Below are positions 7,663 to 25,928 of a stretch of DNA of 26,018 nucleotides, in pieces. The stretch comes from a virus. Under the pieces are notes generated by a model, which made no database searches, was not told the DNA's origin, and saw only the letters and a program-made list of their open reading frames with translations. The stretch spans positions 1 through 26,018 of IMG/VR virus record IMGVR_UViG_3300020194_000727; one strand, written 5' to 3'. Every line of letters begins with the position of its first letter. The first letter of the stretch is position 1. The position numbers and the translations under genes are program-made.

Positions 7663-7706
7663 AGGAAACACGCCCATATTTCATTATAGAAAATGAGGTG
7701 AAAATT

Positions 7707-8348
7707 ATGGCATATACTCGTGGTAATAGCTCACAGATTATCGTGGGTGCTGCTGCGCTATTCACTTACGAAGCAGGAGAGTTGGCTGACACCGACCTTC
7801 CTACAGTTGTTGAGGATGAGAGCTACAAAGACACTCTTACCGATGACACTGACTTCCGTAATGTTGGATACACCATGAACGGTCTTGAGATCGTTTTCCA
7901 GCCAGACTTCGGTGAAGTCCAGGTAGACCAGGTGCTCGACGTTGCCAAGCTTTACAAGCAGGGTATGCAGGTTAACCTTAACACTGCATTCGCTGAGGCA
8001 ACTCTAGAGAACCTTCTCTACTCAATCGCTGGTCAGGACTCAGATCTAGCTACAGCAGCTTCTGGTCCATTCAATGGTAACCCAGTTCTCAACATGAGTG
8101 CTGGTGACATCGGTGAATGTCCAGTAGAGCGTGGTCTAGTTGCAGTTGGTCCAGGTACAGGTGACTGTGCAGCATCAGAATCCATCGAGCGCGTATACGT
8201 TGCTTACCGTGCACTCTCAATTGAGAATGTTACAGTATCCGCTAAGCGTGACGAGCCAACTATGTTCGAGGTTTCTTTCCGCCTTCTTCCAAATGACACA
8301 GCTTCATATGGTAAGATCGTTGACAGAACTATCTCTCTCGTTTCATAG
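7707..8348 (+). CDS. Major tail tube protein
   Basis: This encodes 213 residues from ATG 7707, with SD GAGGTG (7695-7700) at good spacing. An in-frame GTG at 7698 overlaps that SD and is less likely. The protein opens MAYTRGNSSQIIVGAAALFT and continues with acidic beta segments, LDVAKLYKQGMQVNLNTAFA, and a C-terminal AYRALSIENVTVSAKRDEPT then MFEVSFRLLPN. This is the usual style of siphophage tube subunits, which stack as hexamers around the tape measure. Codon choice sets it apart: all 8 Phe codons are TTC, while the gene before it uses TTT for 9 of 11. With its own promoter and terminator, this marks very high expression. No sheath gene is present, supporting a non-contractile tail. Confidence 0.87.
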   Translation: MAYTRGNSSQIIVGAAALFTYEAGELADTDLPTVVEDESYKDTLTDDTDFRNVGYTMNGLEIVFQPDFGEVQVDQVLDVAKLYKQGMQVNLNTAFAEATLENLLYSIAGQDSDLATAASGPFNGNPVLNMSAGDIGECPVERGLVAVGPGTGDCAASESIERVYVAYRALSIENVTVSAKRDEPTMFEVSFRLLPNDTASYGKIVDRTISLVS

Positions 8349-9480: not shown

Positions 9481-12400
9481 ATGGCTGATGCACAAGCCCA
9501 TCTTAGTGTAAATCTTGATACTTCTAAGGCACTGGCTTCTATCCGTGCTTTGCAAGCAGAAATATCAAAATTTCACCAAACGCAGTCAGCACTAAACGCA
9601 CAGGCAGCCTCACAAGCTGCAGGTATGCAGAGAAACCTGATCAATAGCATTAATGCTACTGGTCAGTTTTCTGCACAAATGACAACTGTTGCAAGTACAA
9701 CTAGTGCTTTTACTCGTGCATTAGAAACAAACAAACTATCTCTTGGTCAATACTTCAAGTATGGTGTTGCTTCAACAAAAACATTTGGAAGAGTTTTTCG
9801 TAGTGAGTTTGACACTATTAATAGGGTTGCTCGTGAAAGAGTAAAGACTCTTCAGACCCAATACATAAAGATGGGTCGTGATGCCAACGGTGCAATGAGG
9901 GCTATTGCCGTTAGGCCACTTGCCCTTGATATGGAAAACCTTGCTACTAGAACAGCAATAGCAGCACAAAGACAAGCATTATTTAATCAGCTGTTGAGGC
10001 AGGGTTCTACTAGCCTACTAAACTGGGGTAAGAATACTCAGTGGGCTGGTCGTCAGCTTATGGTTGGTTTTACTCTTCCACTAACCTTGTTTGGCTCTGT
10101 TGCTGCAAGAACATTTATGGATCTTGAAGAACAGGCTATTAGGTTTAAGCGTGTTTATGGTGAGCTGTTTACTTCTCAAAAAGAAACAGATCAAATGTAC
10201 AAGGATCTTCAGGGCCTTGGTTCAGAGTTTACAAAATATGGTGTTGCTCTTAAAGACACCATGAAGATGGCTGCTGACGCAGCTGCAATGGGTAAGACTG
10301 GTGCAGATCTTATGGCACAGGTTAGACAAGCTGCTACCCTTGCCGTCCTCGGTGGGGTAGAGCAAGATAAAGCCCTAGAAACAACAATCTCATTAACTAA
10401 CGCATTTGGTGTTGCCACAGAAGAGCTTGCTAATAAGATTGACTTCCTTAACGCAGTTGAAAACCAAACTGTTGTTAGCATTGAAGATCTTACCACTGCT
10501 ATTCCAAAAGCTGGTCCAGTAGTCAAACAGCTTGGTGGAGATGTTGAGGATCTCGCATTCTTACTTACCGCCATGAAGGAAGGTGGAATTAATGCATCAG
10601 AGGGTGCTAACGCTCTAAAGTCTGGTTTGGCAAGGATTATTAATCCAACAGATCGAGCATCAGAAATGCTTGCTGGGCTTGGTATTAACATTAACGGAAT
10701 TGTAGAAGGTAATGCTGGCGACGTAAAGGGGACTATTGTTGAACTGGCAACTGCCCTAGACACTCTAGACCCTCTCAATAAAGCAAGAGCTATTGAAGAA
10801 CTATTCGGTAAGTTCCAGTTTGCTAGAATTTCAACTTTGATGCAAAACGTAATTGGCGAGGGTACACAGGCACAGCGTGTTCTACAACTAACTCAGGCAA
10901 GCACTGAAGAGCTTGCAATCCTAACTGAGCGAGAGCTTAAGCGAGTAGAGGATTCACCACTTTATAAGTTTAAGCAAGCTTTTGAAGACTTAAAGATTTC
11001 TTTGATCCCAATTGGTGAAGCATTCCTTAAAGCAGTGACACCTATTATTGAGTTTGGTGCTAGGCTGCTAGATAAGTTTGATGCAATGAATGATGGAGCT
11101 AAAAGCTTTGTTGTTGCACTTGTTGCTGGGCTAGGCGTTATTGCCCCGACTCTTCTTATGACCGTTGGTCTTGTTGGTAACGGTGTCGCCAACCTAATCA
11201 AATTCTTTAGCTGGATGAGTCAAATAGGCAAATCGAGTGCCAATATGACAGAGCTTGGCATGTCTACTCAGTATATGACTCAGGAACAGCTTGAAGCTAA
11301 TGCTGTTGCTTCTTCGCTAAATCAGACACACACTACTCTTAGGCAAACATTTACTTCTGAGGCAGCAGCTGTTAATGCACTGACCTTATCATACAATAAA
11401 GCAATTGCCGCACAAAGAGCATTGCTGGCAAGTGGTGGCGGAGCTAAGGTAGCTAGGGGAGCTAAGCCAGCTGGCATGGCAACGGGTGGTATCGTAAAGA
11501 AGTATGCTAAGGGCGTTACGATGGTCCCTGGTCCAAAGGGGGCTGGTGACGTTGTTCCAGCTATGCTTTCTCCAGGGGAAGCTGTTATTCCAGTTGAAGA
11601 AACTAAGAGATATTTTCCACTAATTCAAGCAATGATTGCTGGAGCTATCCCTGGCTTTGCTAATGGTTTTGATGGAGATTACACTAAACTAGCTCAACAT
11701 CTTGCTGGAAGAAAAACAAATATTACAGCAATTCGAGACTACCTTGTTACTAGCGGTCTAAGTAAAGATTTTTTAAATCAGCTCGCTAACAGTAAGGCTG
11801 GGTCTGTAACAACAAAAGCAGATTTGCAAAAGCTAACAACCAGCTTCATGAAGTCATCTGGCAGCATGGATTTTTCTCACACAAGATCTGCCACAAGAAT
11901 TAGTCTTTCCGATGCTTCAAAGTTTAGTGGTGCTGCTGGTGCAAGAGCACAAGAAATGATAAAGGCTGGTGGAACAACTGAAACAACTAACCCAAGAATC
12001 TACTCTTCTTGGGGTTTCATGGGCGATAGAGATTTAAATAAAGCATCTGGATCACTGGGTGGTGCAAATCTATCGGCCTATGCTGCTGCAACTAAGAATG
12101 TTACACCAGAGCAAATGTGGGGTCGTGCGTTCCAAGCTGGCGGTGCAGACATATTTGGTAAAGATTCTCCAGCCATGAAGGCTTTTGGAAAAGCTTTTCA
12201 AGGAGAAATGGATAAAGCTGCAAAAACTTTTGAAAAGGTTTTTGACACAGATGCAAGACTGAATAAAGCTCTTGAGAGAAATCCAGCTCTTAAGGCAACA
12301 AGCCTAGAAGATATTGAGCGTAAAGCAATGCAAAGGCTTCCAGCTCAGTATAAGGCACAGGTTGCTGGAGTTCAGGCAAAAGCTTTACAAACTCCAGCCC

Positions 12401-18500: not shown

Positions 18501-21500
18501 ATGTTTGTTAATCAAAAACTACAAGAACACCTCGAAACCTCTTCTAGTATTAGCAGCCAAGCAATGGTTGTTGCCGAATGGAACATGAATATTGCTGACA
18601 ATATTTCTACCATCGGAAACTATAGATACAGGCCAACAGCTGACATTGCCTCCTCAGAGGGCGTGTACGCCTCTGTGGCTGGCTCTTTTGATATTAACGA
18701 TGAGAACAATGCCGTCAAATTCTATACTGGTGCAACATATGCAGATGTTGTTGTTGACGGCGGTTTGGATAATGCTAACGATCCAGTAGCCTTTACAACA
18801 CCAAACGAAAAAGAAAGACTGCTTTATTCTTTAGAAGATTGCTTTAGAAGATTCAGGCCAAGATCTGGTATCAATAAGCTTAGATATTTTGAAGATAACT
18901 ACACCCACTTTGTTAATCAAAATCTTGCAACAAGGCCAAGATATTATATGGCAAGCAGAAATGATCCTTTTAAATACTGGACTTCTTATCGTAAAGAGAG
19001 TGGAGTAGAGAGAGGTCTTGCTAACAAAATACTAGGTGATCAATATGCAATTGATGATGCTGCACCTTTTGTAGTTTACAAAGACAACATTCCAGCTAAC
19101 AGGATTGTTGTCAAGATGCAAACTAATGTCGGTAGCGTTGACCTAGGGCCATTCTACGAAAACGGGACTTCTTTCGAAGACCCATTCTATGGTGAAGCTA
19201 ATAAGACTACGCCAACAAACTGGAGTATTCAGGTCCTAAAGGGAGATAACTGGGTTGATGTTGCAGTCTTTAATCCCCTGTCTGTAAGAAGAAACAACTC
19301 TCCAGTTATTGGAGACGATGGATATGTAGAGCTTGCTTACGGCATTATTCTACCAGAGCAATATCTCGACACCATTCACTTTGTTGGCTCGTATCCTTTT
19401 GCAAGTCTTCTGCCATCCAACCCAGCAATCAATTCAGCATTTTTCGTAAGAGAAACTCAAAATGAACAAGGCATGGTCTACGTTTGGAATGGCAGTTCCT
19501 ATGACTCTTTTGTTCCACAGTATGGTTGGTATCTTGCTGATGAAGATATAACTGAGCGTACAGCAATGGTTACTGAATTTGTTGACCCAGCATATTTTAA
19601 CGACGGCAATGAAATAAAGTATAAAGAGTTTGAGTATATCCGTGGTATTCGTGTAGTTGTAAAAACAATGAATAAAATCAAATCTACTTTTGATTTGATT
19701 GAGCTTTCTCCACGTCTTGTTGCAAACATAACCGATAGAACAAGAGCTTTCGATCTCAACAAGAGCGCATCAGATCTTGGTGTGAGTGGTATGCCAGTAG
19801 GTCAGCTTCTTGCCTCTAACGGTACGCTAGAGATATTTGATTTTGACGATTCGTTTAATCAAAACAATACCAGTAGCGTCTTGTCATCTTTTGTTTCCAA
19901 TAACTTACAGATTAAACTTTTTGAGAATATTAGCATCATCGACAATGATGCTGTTGAAACATTTTCTGTTCCACTTAAAATATTGTATGCTGATGGTTTC
20001 CCACAGACAGACTCTAAGGGTAGAAGCGTAAAGCTAGGTTTAAGAGATCTATTCTTTTACTTTGAAACACTGAATGCCCCACAGCTATTGGTCGAAGGAG
20101 CTTCTCTTAGCTATGCCGTATCGTTTTTGTTAGACTCTATCGGCTTCTCAAACTATGTGTTTAGAAGGGTAGAGGGTGAAGACGATCCAATAATTCCTTA
20201 CTTCTTCGTAAAGCCAGAAACTACAATTGCTCAGGTTCTACAGGAGTTAGCCGTAGCTACACAGTCAGCAATGTTCTTTGACGAATTCAATAACTTTGTT
20301 GTTATGAGCAAAAACTATATTATGCCATCAGCAGAAGAGAGGGCTACTGACACCCAAATCCTTGGCTCGTCTGATCAAACAAAAGATGGCGTAAACGAAA
20401 ACAGAACTACTGGGCAAAGCCTTTCAAATATTATTGAGCTTACTTCTGCCAATCAGGAAGTCTTCAATGATGGAAAGATTCTTTATGAAGAAAAGTATAT
20501 TCAAAAAGATTACGGCTCTCTAAGACAGGCAAACTTTGTGAATCAAGATAAAAACTGGGTTTATAAGCCAGTCCTCCTCTGGGAAGTAACAGGAACTCCG
20601 CCTATTAGGTCTGCCAATGAGTCTCAGGATCAGTCGTCTTCTTATGCTTTAGCAGCAGTCCCACTAAACTCAGACCTATTGGACGAAGAGCCATGGGTCA
20701 AGAAAAACCAACTTATTAACAACATAATTGATTTTGGCGAGGGTGCATATTGGGTAGCCAGATACAATGGATACTTCTACGCCAATGGTGAAATTATTAA
20801 ATATGACGCAATAGAATATAGCGTATCTGGCATTGGCAATGTGTGGATTAGTAGCTTGCGAGAATACCAAAACTATTATTCTAAGGTTGAGTATGGTGGA
20901 AGACTATATCCAACTGGCCGTGTACGAATTTATTCAGAACCATTCTATGAGGAGATCGATGGAATTGTTGTTTTGAAAAATGGTGCTGTTCGTAAACATG
21001 GTAGAGCACAGTTCGGAACCTCGATAGCTTACCACAGTGCTGGTCTTCCACAATACTGGTCAGACACTACTGACAATGCCCCAGTCCAGGGTATAGAAAT
21101 GGACTCTAGGTATCTATTCTCAACATTCGCCAATAAGAGACTTCTCGGTGCATATAACCAAGAGGCAATATCTATTGATGTTTCTGCAGAAATAGATGAG
21201 CCAAACAATATTTTTGGTATTGCCTATGCTGACGGTAAATGGGTTGGTGTCGGAGATGATGGTAATTTTAGAATTTCTACTAATGGGGAAGACTGGACAA
21301 TCTTTATTGATGATGGTGTTGCACTTATTGATGAAGATATTAGGCTAAAAGCAGTTGCCTATGGAACTGGGCCAGAGTCTAACTCTGTCTGGCTGGCTGT
21401 TGGTAGCAAGGGGACTGGAGACAGCAAAGAAGCATTAATGCTTTATTCTGAGGACGCTACCGAGTGGACAGAAATTACAGATCATGGCATTGAGTCAACA

Positions 21501-24500
21501 TCTCTTAATGATGTTCAGTTTAACAATAACTTGTGGGCTGTAGCTGGTAATGAGGCAGCCTTTGCAACTTCAACAGACACATCATCCTGGAGCGTTAAAA
21601 CATTAACTCTCGATGTTAAAGTTTCTAGTGGTGCAAACAAGAAAAAGATTTCAAGAACCTACAGACAAACTGGTATTTCTATATCTAAAATTTATAAGAA
21701 AAATAAAAACGAGGATTCTAGCGAGGCTGTTATCGTTAGAAAAAATCATGGCCTTAAAAATAATGAAAAGATTAAGTTTTCCACAACTGGAACTCTGCCA
21801 GCTGGATTATATACAAGTGCTGAAAGAGCTAATCCTTACTATGTAAAGATAAGAAACAAAGATAGCTTTTTTGTTAAAAACAATATAGGAGATGAAACTG
21901 GTGCACTAATTGACTCAAACGGTAGTGGAAGGCATAGCTATTCTAGAGAAGCTGCAACCTTTACAGTTAATAAACACAACTTCTCCAATAACAACTCAAT
22001 CAGAGTAATAGAGTCTGGAACGCTACCATCTGTATTGTCTGAAGATACTGCATATTACGTTCGTGTTATAGATAAGAATAATATATCTCTATCAACATCT
22101 AAAAATGGCGACTTGATTGACTTTGTTTCTGCACAATCTTCAAGCTCACACACAATAGAAGAATACGTCAAAAACAATATTAATACCATCGGATATGGAA
22201 ACGGGACTTGGGCTGTAGCTGGCAAGCAGGGGGTGTTTGCAACTTCAACAGACACAAATTCTTGGACAGCTAGGAATATTGGATTCTCTGGTGCTAAAGC
22301 TTACAAGATTGCCTATGGGCAAAACACGTGGGTTGTAGTTGGAGCATCTAAAAAATCTGTTAAATCAACAAATTTAACAAAATGGACTAGGTTTGATACT
22401 AAAATATCAAAAACTCTCAGAACTATCGGCTTCGGCAACGGGGTATGGATTGCAGCTGGTAGCAATGGGACAATGTCTAGGTCAACAAACCTTTCTAAAT
22501 GGAAAACAGTGAAGGCAAAACAACGCAAAGCAAACATTAATGATGTTGCTTGGAATGGATCTTATTGGATTGCAATTGGAAACAAGCTTAATATTTCTAA
22601 ATCTCAAGATGGTTCTTCATGGAACAGCAGGGCACAAAATAATGTGGGAGAGATTGTTTTTGAAAGTATTGTCCCTCACAATTTAGTTCCATTTGATAGG
22701 GTTATTCTTAATAGTACGGGAACAATATCTGAAGAAACTTTGACAGATGTCTCTATAAGTATTGCAAATCCAGCAAATTTTACTGCAGAAAATCACAAGT
22801 TAGCCAATAATGATCAGGTGGCTTTAAGAACTACTGGCTCATTACCAGAAGCTTTTGACGAAGATACAACATATTATGTAATCAGGATAGACAAAAATAC
22901 GTTTAGGTTGGCATCTGAGCCAAACGGTTCGGCAATATCTACAGCAGGAAACTCTCAAAGTGGCGATCACTCATTCTATTTCCCGCCAGTCTCCCTTGGC
23001 GAGCCATACTGGGTTAGCCCTAAAAATATTACAAGCAATACCTTTACAATCTCTAGCTCTAGGGACAACGCTAGGCTCGGCATTACAGTTAAAGGCAAGG
23101 GTGCAGAAAGTGGCGAGCATAACGTTACTCTCGACACCAACCTTGAATCCCGCTTAGTGACATCGTTAGGCTCGGAAACGGATAAGCTTAAGGTTACAGC
23201 AAGCAGTGCTATCTATGAGCCAGGGGATAGAATATATTTCGCAATGATGGAAAACCTTGGCGGGGGCCAATATTTGCCATTAGAGTTGAATAATCCAGCT
23301 AACTTAACAAGATATGCAGCATTCTACGTTCATTCTGTTGTTGGCGATGAGGGTAGGTCATTCCTAATTTCGGAATCTTTGGGTGGCGATGCAATTGATA
23401 GTCCAGGAGACGTAGACCTGTCAGAATATTTATCAGGCATACAAGAAGAAAACAATCTAGACTTTACTCCAGAGTTTAGAATTATGCTAAACCGAACCGA
23501 AGAAATTTTAAACTCGACATTGCTTTCGCCAAATTCTGTAGAGTTTTCTGTCGGTAACCTTTTAGAAATTAGCTCTACAGCTGGAGAACTTGTTTCGCCA
23601 ACAAGGGTTTCTGCCATACGTTCTGCAGCACAAATTGTAAAAGAAGTAACTATCTCTATTGGTAATCCAGCAATAGTTACATGTAACGACCATGGGCTAT
23701 TTGATCAAGATACTATTAGTTTTACTACTAATGGAACACTGCCATATGGAATTGAAACAAATATCAACTATTTTGTTGAAAGAATAGATAGTAATAACTT
23801 TAATTTGCTTACCTATAGCGAGTCTGATGAATCTTTTGTTTATGTAGAAACAAAGTCCTCAGACGAAGAGAATCCAGATGCTGAGATTGATTTGGATGAG
23901 CTAGACGCTGCCGAGGCAATAGAAGACGATGATGAGCGAGAGGCAGCATTTGCTGCAATCTATAACTATAGAGCACAAAACGGAAAACACTCCTTCGTAA
24001 AGTCTTTCAATGACAGCAACCAGGTTGTTATGAATAGAGAAGTCGCAGAAGTTGTCCCACAATATATTGTTACACAAGAAGAGGTTTTAATTGATGAAGA
24101 GGATGGGGAAACAGAAATTCAAACAACTTATGAAAACGTTTCTGCCAAAAACATTATCACTGCAATTCAAGAGCTAGAGGTAACTTCTGGAGAAAAGGCT
24201 GGATTCAGCGATGCGAATAAGTCACTTGCAAGAGCTGCTTCACGTAATGGTATCATAAAAAACTATTTTGCTAATTCTTCGTTTAGCGAAACTGATGTAA
24301 ATAAGTTCTTGGCAACACAAACTGGAACTGTACAGTCTTCAGCATTAGTGTTTAACGGACCAGTTTTTGATGACCTTGACAAAGAGCCGATTGACTTTAT
24401 CTCGTATGCCCATAAGCCATTGACAGACAAATATTCTCATTTTGGAACAAGGATGCGAATTGTTGGAAAGCAAAGCAAAGAGCAGTATGAGCAAAATATT

Positions 24501-25928
24501 CTGAGGGCAATGGATTATTTTGTTACTCCAAGCAATCGTGAAGGACAGCCTAAGACAGTGTCTGGAGGATCTGGTGGACTCGGAATTATGGTTAACCCAG
24601 AAAACAACAATGGATATTTCTTTGAAATAATTGCTTTGCCAAAAACAAATCCAGATTCTTATTCTGCCACAAGCGATGACCCAAGATTCCAGCAACTAGA
24701 AGAAGAGGGCCTTTTCAACGTTGTATTTTATAAGGTTGTTAGAAAAGTTCCTAATGAAGCTGAGGCAGCTGTAGAAGATTCTTCACAGGCCATACCAGTA
24801 AAGCTTTGGCAGGGAGTTACAAGCATTATTGCTGATGACGGATTGTTTATTGGTCAATCTCGAACGGTAAACGACAAAACGCCAAGCGTTTACGACATGT
24901 CTGTAGAGTATGAAGATATTGACGAAAACACTAGACGTTTTTACCTGATGATTAACAGCATAGTTATTGGAATTGTTGATGATACAGAGCCTCTGCCAAT
25001 TTATAACAATATGGCACTGTTTGTTCGTGGAACTACCAGGGCAATGTTTGAAAACATTTACGCTATTGCTAATAACTTTACACAGAATACTATTTTTGAT
25101 ATAGAAGCTCCAGTCAATTCTGTGTTCGGCACAGAAAAAATTAATGTTTCTCAATCGTTTAGAAAGTATGCAGTTAGCGGTGCCGTCCAATCAACCTACC
25201 TGTCTGGTATTGGTGTAAACGATGTTCCTAAATACAATATGTACTTTGAAGAATTTGGAACAATTATGCGTGAATGTGCACACTTTAATGTCAAATATGA
25301 TAAAGCATACCCAGCACTATATGCTAAGATTGCAGATACTTTTAATAAGATGAAGGGCTATACAGTATCTGGATTTGTTCCTAGTGCCTACGGTGCGGAG
25401 TTCCTTGTATTTAATAATACAGATACAGCACTTAATCTTGACGAAACAACTGGAAACTATCTTAGAATTCAGGGTGTTAGCTTTACACAGAATGTGGCAA
25501 GAGATTTGACGGTAGACGATTACTTTAACTCTATTAGTGACTTTTCTGATCCAGACATTAAAGAAGATGGCACAATCATCTCTCCAATAAGACAGCAACA
25601 AAGATATCTAGATATTAAAAACAGCAGACTTACATACGGTAGAAAAGAGTTCGTAATAGAATCAGCGTATATTCAAAGTCAAGATGATGCAAATGACCTG
25701 ATGGCTTGGATGATAGATAAAACCATGAGGCCAAGGAAATCTGTTGGTATGATTCTATTCTCAATGCCAACAATACAGCTGGGGGATATTGTTACAATCG
25801 ACTATACTTCTACAGACAGTATTGAGCAGATATCTTTAGACGATACCCGCTTTGTAGTTTATAATATTGAATATCAAAGAAACGATCTTGGCCCAGTTAT
25901 GACTGTTTATTTAAGTGAGGTTTTGTGA
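18501..25928 (+). CDS. Giant tail-tip (hub-like) protein with beta-propeller and module insertions
   Basis: This encodes 2475 residues, starting directly after the previous stop. Residues 1 to about 640 look like a baseplate hub: GLRDLFFYFETLNAPQLLVE (about 512) and KPETTIAQVLQELAVATQSA (about 570) resemble gp27/Tal-type domains. Residues about 903-1380 hold seven Asp-box-like propeller blades, split by two unrelated beta modules. Further beta modules lie at about 1387-1830, one carrying an acidic insert. From about 1840 a conserved-style body resumes: a jelly-roll resembling LamG/concanavalin folds (about 1977-2190; YSHFGTRMRIVG, MALFVRGTTRAMFENIYAI) and a C-terminal hub-like domain (FVIESAYIQSQDDANDLMAW, TIQLGDIVTIDY). 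The hub would seed tail assembly. The propeller and jelly-roll could bind surface glycans, which is inference. Confidence 0.82.
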   Translation: MFVNQKLQEHLETSSSISSQAMVVAEWNMNIADNISTIGNYRYRPTADIASSEGVYASVAGSFDINDENNAVKFYTGATYADVVVDGGLDNANDPVAFTTPNEKERLLYSLEDCFRRFRPRSGINKLRYFEDNYTHFVNQNLATRPRYYMASRNDPFKYWTSYRKESGVERGLANKILGDQYAIDDAAPFVVYKDNIPANRIVVKMQTNVGSVDLGPFYENGTSFEDPFYGEANKTTPTNWSIQVLKGDNWVDVAVFNPLSVRRNNSPVIGDDGYVELAYGIILPEQYLDTIHFVGSYPFASLLPSNPAINSAFFVRETQNEQGMVYVWNGSSYDSFVPQYGWYLADEDITERTAMVTEFVDPAYFNDGNEIKYKEFEYIRGIRVVVKTMNKIKSTFDLIELSPRLVANITDRTRAFDLNKSASDLGVSGMPVGQLLASNGTLEIFDFDDSFNQNNTSSVLSSFVSNNLQIKLFENISIIDNDAVETFSVPLKILYADGFPQTDSKGRSVKLGLRDLFFYFETLNAPQLLVEGASLSYAVSFLLDSIGFSNYVFRRVEGEDDPIIPYFFVKPETTIAQVLQELAVATQSAMFFDEFNNFVVMSKNYIMPSAEERATDTQILGSSDQTKDGVNENRTTGQSLSNIIELTSANQEVFNDGKILYEEKYIQKDYGSLRQANFVNQDKNWVYKPVLLWEVTGTPPIRSANESQDQSSSYALAAVPLNSDLLDEEPWVKKNQLINNIIDFGEGAYWVARYNGYFYANGEIIKYDAIEYSVSGIGNVWISSLREYQNYYSKVEYGGRLYPTGRVRIYSEPFYEEIDGIVVLKNGAVRKHGRAQFGTSIAYHSAGLPQYWSDTTDNAPVQGIEMDSRYLFSTFANKRLLGAYNQEAISIDVSAEIDEPNNIFGIAYADGKWVGVGDDGNFRISTNGEDWTIFIDDGVALIDEDIRLKAVAYGTGPESNSVWLAVGSKGTGDSKEALMLYSEDATEWTEITDHGIESTSLNDVQFNNNLWAVAGNEAAFATSTDTSSWSVKTLTLDVKVSSGANKKKISRTYRQTGISISKIYKKNKNEDSSEAVIVRKNHGLKNNEKIKFSTTGTLPAGLYTSAERANPYYVKIRNKDSFFVKNNIGDETGALIDSNGSGRHSYSREAATFTVNKHNFSNNNSIRVIESGTLPSVLSEDTAYYVRVIDKNNISLSTSKNGDLIDFVSAQSSSSHTIEEYVKNNINTIGYGNGTWAVAGKQGVFATSTDTNSWTARNIGFSGAKAYKIAYGQNTWVVVGASKKSVKSTNLTKWTRFDTKISKTLRTIGFGNGVWIAAGSNGTMSRSTNLSKWKTVKAKQRKANINDVAWNGSYWIAIGNKLNISKSQDGSSWNSRAQNNVGEIVFESIVPHNLVPFDRVILNSTGTISEETLTDVSISIANPANFTAENHKLANNDQVALRTTGSLPEAFDEDTTYYVIRIDKNTFRLASEPNGSAISTAGNSQSGDHSFYFPPVSLGEPYWVSPKNITSNTFTISSSRDNARLGITVKGKGAESGEHNVTLDTNLESRLVTSLGSETDKLKVTASSAIYEPGDRIYFAMMENLGGGQYLPLELNNPANLTRYAAFYVHSVVGDEGRSFLISESLGGDAIDSPGDVDLSEYLSGIQEENNLDFTPEFRIMLNRTEEILNSTLLSPNSVEFSVGNLLEISSTAGELVSPTRVSAIRSAAQIVKEVTISIGNPAIVTCNDHGLFDQDTISFTTNGTLPYGIETNINYFVERIDSNNFNLLTYSESDESFVYVETKSSDEENPDAEIDLDELDAAEAIEDDDEREAAFAAIYNYRAQNGKHSFVKSFNDSNQVVMNREVAEVVPQYIVTQEEVLIDEEDGETEIQTTYENVSAKNIITAIQELEVTSGEKAGFSDANKSLARAASRNGIIKNYFANSSFSETDVNKFLATQTGTVQSSALVFNGPVFDDLDKEPIDFISYAHKPLTDKYSHFGTRMRIVGKQSKEQYEQNILRAMDYFVTPSNREGQPKTVSGGSGGLGIMVNPENNNGYFFEIIALPKTNPDSYSATSDDPRFQQLEEEGLFNVVFYKVVRKVPNEAEAAVEDSSQAIPVKLWQGVTSIIADDGLFIGQSRTVNDKTPSVYDMSVEYEDIDENTRRFYLMINSIVIGIVDDTEPLPIYNNMALFVRGTTRAMFENIYAIANNFTQNTIFDIEAPVNSVFGTEKINVSQSFRKYAVSGAVQSTYLSGIGVNDVPKYNMYFEEFGTIMRECAHFNVKYDKAYPALYAKIADTFNKMKGYTVSGFVPSAYGAEFLVFNNTDTALNLDETTGNYLRIQGVSFTQNVARDLTVDDYFNSISDFSDPDIKEDGTIISPIRQQQRYLDIKNSRLTYGRKEFVIESAYIQSQDDANDLMAWMIDKTMRPRKSVGMILFSMPTIQLGDIVTIDYTSTDSIEQISLDDTRFVVYNIEYQRNDLGPVMTVYLSEVL
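21561..21581 (+). repeat. Exact 21-base DNA repeat shared by blades 3 and 4
   Basis: The 21 bases starting TTTGCAACTTCAACAG here recur exactly at 22236-22256. A second shared stretch, TGGGCTGTAGCTGG, lies shortly upstream in both blades. The two blades flank the inserted modules. Confidence 0.85.
21723..22157 (+). repeat. Two beta modules inserted into the propeller
   Basis: Two copies of about 70 residues (21723-21941 and 21951-22157) share the order: (K)HxxxNN, a strand, S/T-x-GTLP, YYV, a (D/N)K(D/N) turn, and a closing (R/S)HS/T. They belong to the same unnamed module type as the copies at 22749 and 23646. Confidence 0.75.
22749..22980 (+). repeat. Beta module copy after the propeller
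   Basis: This is a well-preserved copy with ENHKLANNDQ, TTGSLPEAF, TTYYVIRIDKNTFRLA and a closing GDHSF. A degenerate partial copy precedes it at about 22650-22740 (PHNLVPFDRVILNSTGT). More diverged relatives may lie at about 22995-23130 and 23190-23400. Confidence 0.75.
23646..24000 (+). repeat. Beta module copy carrying an acidic insert
   Basis: The copy has SIGNPAIVTCNDHGLFDQD, TTNGTLPYGI, NYFVERIDSNNFNLL and the closing NGKHSF. Between the last strand and the closing motif lie about 45 residues dominated by Asp, Glu and Ala, which are absent from the other copies. Confidence 0.7.

Follow-up and report, generated by a model that had tools for sequence, protein, structure and literature searches.

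Among Asp-box propellers, those classed as 'type 2' are interrupted by an inserted domain, as in the Vibrio cholerae sialidase (PMC2716378). The photosystem II assembly factor YCF48 (PDB 5ojr, 5oj3, and 2xbg) has seven blades, and its eukaryotic form carries a short insertion (PMC10403576) at the same blade boundary that is interrupted in the protein described here. In phages, the K1F and phi92 endosialidase tail spikes (1v0e and 4hiz) are receptor-contacting proteins in which a propeller is associated with a beta barrel, and phage protein domain shuffling linked to host interaction is documented (PMC10684548).

The locus described here encodes a tail-tip protein with a predicted propeller that is split by two small beta modules. 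The explanation preferred for the whole arrangement, to which we assign a probability of about 0.6, is a lineage-acquired cassette of ~1,000 residues in which a nested propeller would serve as a scaffold and, together with the modules, bind a host surface polymer.

The tail-tip gene and its homologs

The DNA analyzed, referred to below as the window, is the whole of IMG/VR virus record IMGVR_UViG_3300020194_000727 (26,018 bases, single contig). It is probably a fragment of a larger genome and contains portal, maturation protease, major head, tail, and tape measure genes. The tail-tip gene and its parts are on the plus strand, and positions are given in window coordinates. The last complete gene (18501..25928) encodes a 2475-aa protein and follows the tape measure gene and a 245-aa gene. 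The name tail-tip (minor tail) protein was chosen because of this gene order, a match to the PHROG minor tail protein profile phrog_10359 (E 4e-51, in four stretches), and tblastn matches to Streptomyces phage minor tail proteins; the flanks of the cassette take their identity from the PHROG assignment and the gene order. Stanwilliamsviridae and other Streptomyces and Rhodococcus phages share a homologous tail-tip framework (phrog_10359) at ~25% identity. In phage Karp, unlike the cassette-bearing window, the matched span was only ~2.5 kb for more than 2,000 query residues, so that a cassette of such size is not present there. Pfam and NCBIfam gave no convincing family in the window protein, and sequence comparison of the N-terminal, C-terminal, and propeller profiles with the PDB matched nothing meaningful, nor did it match the flanks to a gp27-type tail hub. 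No prophage was found when bacterial genomes were scanned with the C-terminal profile, and a plasmid search gave no match.

Elsewhere in the window, a tail gene at 7698-8348 matched phrog_2175 (protein with Ig domain) and had a weak match to a family of major tail proteins. A 62-bp stretch of the tape measure gene (10021-10082) shared 92-97% identity with over 50 Streptomyces phages, the proteins themselves being distant. This stretch encodes the conserved peptide WGKNTQWAGRQL, and of 116 contigs sampled with a degenerate codon pattern, only 3 carried its exact DNA; a DNA element was therefore rejected as unnecessary, the conserved peptide being sufficient.

A search of viral contigs with the propeller region alone found no relatives, and for this reason homologs were collected with the C-terminal part, the best 80 of 394 relatives being retained. 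The site was readable on both sides in 71 of these, which were considered informative. Between the conserved N-terminal part (residues 1-876, 18501..21128), common to homologs without the cassette, and the conserved C-terminal part (residues 1908-2475, 24222..25925), common to all homologs, 68 of the 71 held 18-26 residues, some of these 68 being near copies of one another. The remaining three held 91 (L005), 968 (L003), and 976 (L004) residues, and the window carries ~1,035. The arrangement is thus not common to all homologs, since the block is missing from 69 of the 71. A sequence-only reading had proposed that residues 903-1830 were inserted between conserved tail parts; the insertion is borne out by this census, and its extent proved larger, with alignment placing the boundaries of the acquired cassette at residues ~877-1895 (21129..24185). 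With the window included, 3 of the 72 informative homologs carry it.

In a tree of the conserved parts, the window, L003, and L004 formed one clade with support of 1.0, and a single gain of the cassette before these three split would be the simplest account. The L005 tail protein has a different insert of ~70 residues at the site (residues ~877-968), which scored only 0.3 bits against the module profile and is not of the module type described below. Because this insert differs in sequence, more than one insert is accepted at the site, which looks permissive for insertions. With three filled sites set against 68 near-empty relatives, the family is a clear case of a tail tip that acquired a very large set of domains at a single position.

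The interrupted propeller

A blade HMM was built only from other phage proteins, namely L086 and L084, the latter having an uninterrupted propeller of the same kind, and was then run on the window protein. It identified exactly seven blades at residues 906-1377, scoring 5.5-22.4 bits, as compared with a best score of 2.5 bits among 200 shuffled versions of the protein. Three blades precede the interruption: blade 1 (residues 906-933, 21216..21299, 22.4 bits), blade 2 (961-993, 21381..21479, 9.8 bits), and blade 3 (1007-1033, 21519..21599, 5.5 bits). Four follow it: blade 4 (1229-1259, 22185..22277, 18.4 bits), blade 5 (1269-1297, 22305..22391, 14.3 bits), blade 6 (1307-1334, 22419..22502, 11.6 bits), and blade 7 (1348-1377, 22542..22631, 9.7 bits). 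Blades 3 and 4 were separated by a gap of 195 residues (1034-1228). These positions agree with the initial proposal of seven blade motifs in 21207-22640 (residues 903-1380) once an interruption of ~190 residues is removed. When read by eye, the blades appear to carry a degenerate Asp-box-like motif, S-x-[DN]-x-x-x-W as compared with S/T-x-D-x-G-x-x-W. The same seven blade places were recovered in L003 and L004, each with one weak blade (-1.3 and 0.5 bits, respectively).

The gap is occupied by two modules, i1 (residues 1058-1148, 21672..21944) and i2 (residues 1149-1222, 21945..22166), of a type with a consensus of roughly NHGL-x-ND-x-I...TTGTLP-x-GL...YYV. An HMM trained only on the modules located after the propeller scored them at 47.5 and 52.4 bits, respectively, against a shuffle maximum of 8.1 bits, which confirmed that the interrupting segments are of the module type found after the propeller. 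The corresponding modules of L003 and L004 scored 31-87 bits with this HMM. All three carriers share the order of three blades, two modules, and four blades, and the uninterrupted state was not seen in the family. An assembly artefact was ruled out, as the same layout was present in three independent contigs.

AlphaFold2 models, each based on a three-row alignment, were obtained for residues 874-1393 of the window protein (mean pLDDT 74, pTM 0.64) and for its homolog L004, in which most of the propeller had pLDDT values of ~78-94 and the modules values of 71-91. Most blades were modelled with three or four strands. In Foldseek searches of the PDB, the best alignments spanned the interruption: YCF48 (5ojr_C) was matched with a target TM of 0.73 over 495 columns by the window model and 0.71 over 488 columns by the L004 model, and eight-bladed designs gave 0.53-0.59 and 0.56-0.61, respectively, the fold matches having high rmsd. 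The models thus support a predicted single seven-bladed YCF48/Asp-box-like propeller formed by blades 1-3 and 4-7 across the interruption, which answers the question of whether one propeller or two incomplete ones would be predicted. That the blades instead belong to two separate incomplete propellers, or are blade-like repeats with no closed ring, is very improbable: the alignment of each model to a single seven-bladed target runs through the interruption, and seven blade positions are present in 3/3 carriers as well as in an uninterrupted relative. Consistent with such a layout are the weak score of blade 3 in the window (5.5 bits, as against 24.1 in L003 and 14.4 in L004) and the low-confidence loops beside the insert in the window model, which leave ring closure unproven. 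In both models the insert lies in the loop from the last strand (D) of blade 3 to the first strand (A) of blade 4. Loops of that kind all sit on one propeller face.

Modules nested within modules

Further copies of the module follow the propeller, and two of them, designated P1 and P2, are themselves interrupted. The first half of P1 (residues 1383-1412, 22647..22736, profile positions 9-38) is separated from the second half (residues 1497-1545, 22989..23135, profile positions 39-82) by a complete module (residues 1414-1494, 22740..22982) which scored 103.8 bits over profile positions 3-81. P1 was split at the identical profile position in the window and L004, and was a single piece in L003, from which the nested module was absent; the profile included the nested modules, so the split position is descriptive, and the absence in L003 is independent of the profile. 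P2 (residues 1714-1836, 23640..24008, 91.3 bits) has an insert of ~50 residues according to the alignment. Its interior holds a complete extra module in L003, the ~50-residue acidic stretch in the window, and neither in L004. The strongly acidic sequence SSDEENPDAEIDLDELDAAEAIEDDDER, at ~23856-23942, occupies the place where L003 holds the extra module; a Pfam SGS match to this insert (E 0.009) was taken as a composition effect.

As read from these profile comparisons, nesting affects three kinds of site: the propeller, P1, and P2. When the modules were placed in a small tree, nested copies from the same site did not cluster and support for most deep nodes was weak, and for these reasons independent gains are indistinguishable from loss with replacement. 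One tentative and rather doubtful idea is that modules of the NHGL type are self-compatible insertion units, with ends suited to loops in propellers and in other modules of that type. If so, phages could build matryoshka-like receptor surfaces while the receiving fold stays unbroken. The module-in-module differences between close homologs suggest that such surfaces grow by nesting and not just by end-to-end addition. Each half of a split module gives a poor score when searched for by itself, which bears on domain annotation, and nesting and cassette gain together bear on how phages change host range.

Proposed role and comparison with known systems

Under the preferred explanation, one tailed-phage lineage acquired ~1,000 residues in its tail-tip protein, at a boundary between domains where insertions are tolerated. 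These residues comprise a predicted seven-bladed YCF48/Asp-box-like propeller with two small beta modules in the loop from blade 3 to blade 4, followed by more copies of the same module, some of them nested in one another. The propeller may act as a rigid scaffold at the tail tip from which the modules project on one face, and propeller and modules together may bind a host surface polymer, while the conserved parts before and after the cassette would keep their role in tail-tip assembly. Tail-tip proteins contact the host, and the cassette is probably a receptor-binding, changeable host-gripping part. In keeping with this role, the modules recur in tail fibres and minor tail proteins of other phages, and the K1F and phi92 tail-spike propellers were near the top of the L004 fold matches.

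The main rival has the cassette acting structurally, as a spacer or brace in the tail tip with no host binding, in the manner of the strings of beta modules in cyanophage wedge initiators. Baseplate wedge proteins of cyanophages also have propellers and such modules, possibly with a structural role. The window modules match phrog_2885, a baseplate wedge subunit, module-like segments are present in a Synechococcus phage wedge initiator, and the S-SSM7 wedge initiator was among the viral fold matches. Homologous tail tips, however, do without the cassette, which is therefore not needed for assembly, and module content varies among the three carriers, a better fit to a variable surface. We consider the brace less probable than host binding by a fair distance, and it is still the likeliest of the rivals. 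A glycan-cleaving depolymerase, with the inserted modules acting as substrate-binding domains as in the K1F endosialidase, is improbable. Asp-box propellers are often glycosidases (PMC2716378), and the L004 model had the K1F and phi92 enzymes among its best fold matches in the PDB (1v0e, 3ju4, and 4hiz), yet the non-enzymatic YCF48 was far better by target TM (0.71 versus 0.24), K1F has six blades (PMC2716378), and family searches matched no glycosidase family.

A related propeller is found in Actinomycetia phage DSL-LC01 (WJZ48562.1), in which the blade HMM identified a stand-alone seven-blade protein of 290 aa that is 34-40% identical to blades 4-7 of L004. Unlike the propeller of the window tail-tip protein, it is a separate protein without inserted modules, and no homolog of the window tail-tip C-terminus was detected in that phage. 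Its gene (OQ999401.1, 4995-5867) adjoins collagen-like fibre genes; because of this position its annotation, photosystem II assembly factor, is unlikely, and it probably encodes a propeller of the virion. Several large phage proteins of structural type (L085, L089, L091, L092, and L093) also contained blade-like repeats of this kind.

YCF48 itself was the best complete-target fold match of both models (target TM mostly 0.64-0.73) and shares the number of blades with the window propeller, whereas sequence identity was only ~10% and the insertion in the window, unlike that in YCF48, consists of two whole modules in a phage tail component. The Vibrio cholerae sialidase is an enzyme with a lectin-like inserted domain, in contrast to the window, where two copies of a module that recurs outside the propeller are inserted. 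The K1F and phi92 endosialidases differ in having six blades, in being separate tail spikes and enzymes, and in the family of their modules: the window protein has seven blades, not a six-bladed catalytic propeller, and no match to the GH58 endosialidase family, and Pfam End_beta_barrel reached only E 0.064 in L003, below the cut-off. Interrupted propellers and domain shuffling in phage proteins are thus already known; the new elements are a tail-tip propeller with a double-module insertion, the comparison of filled and empty sites, and the insertion of modules into modules.
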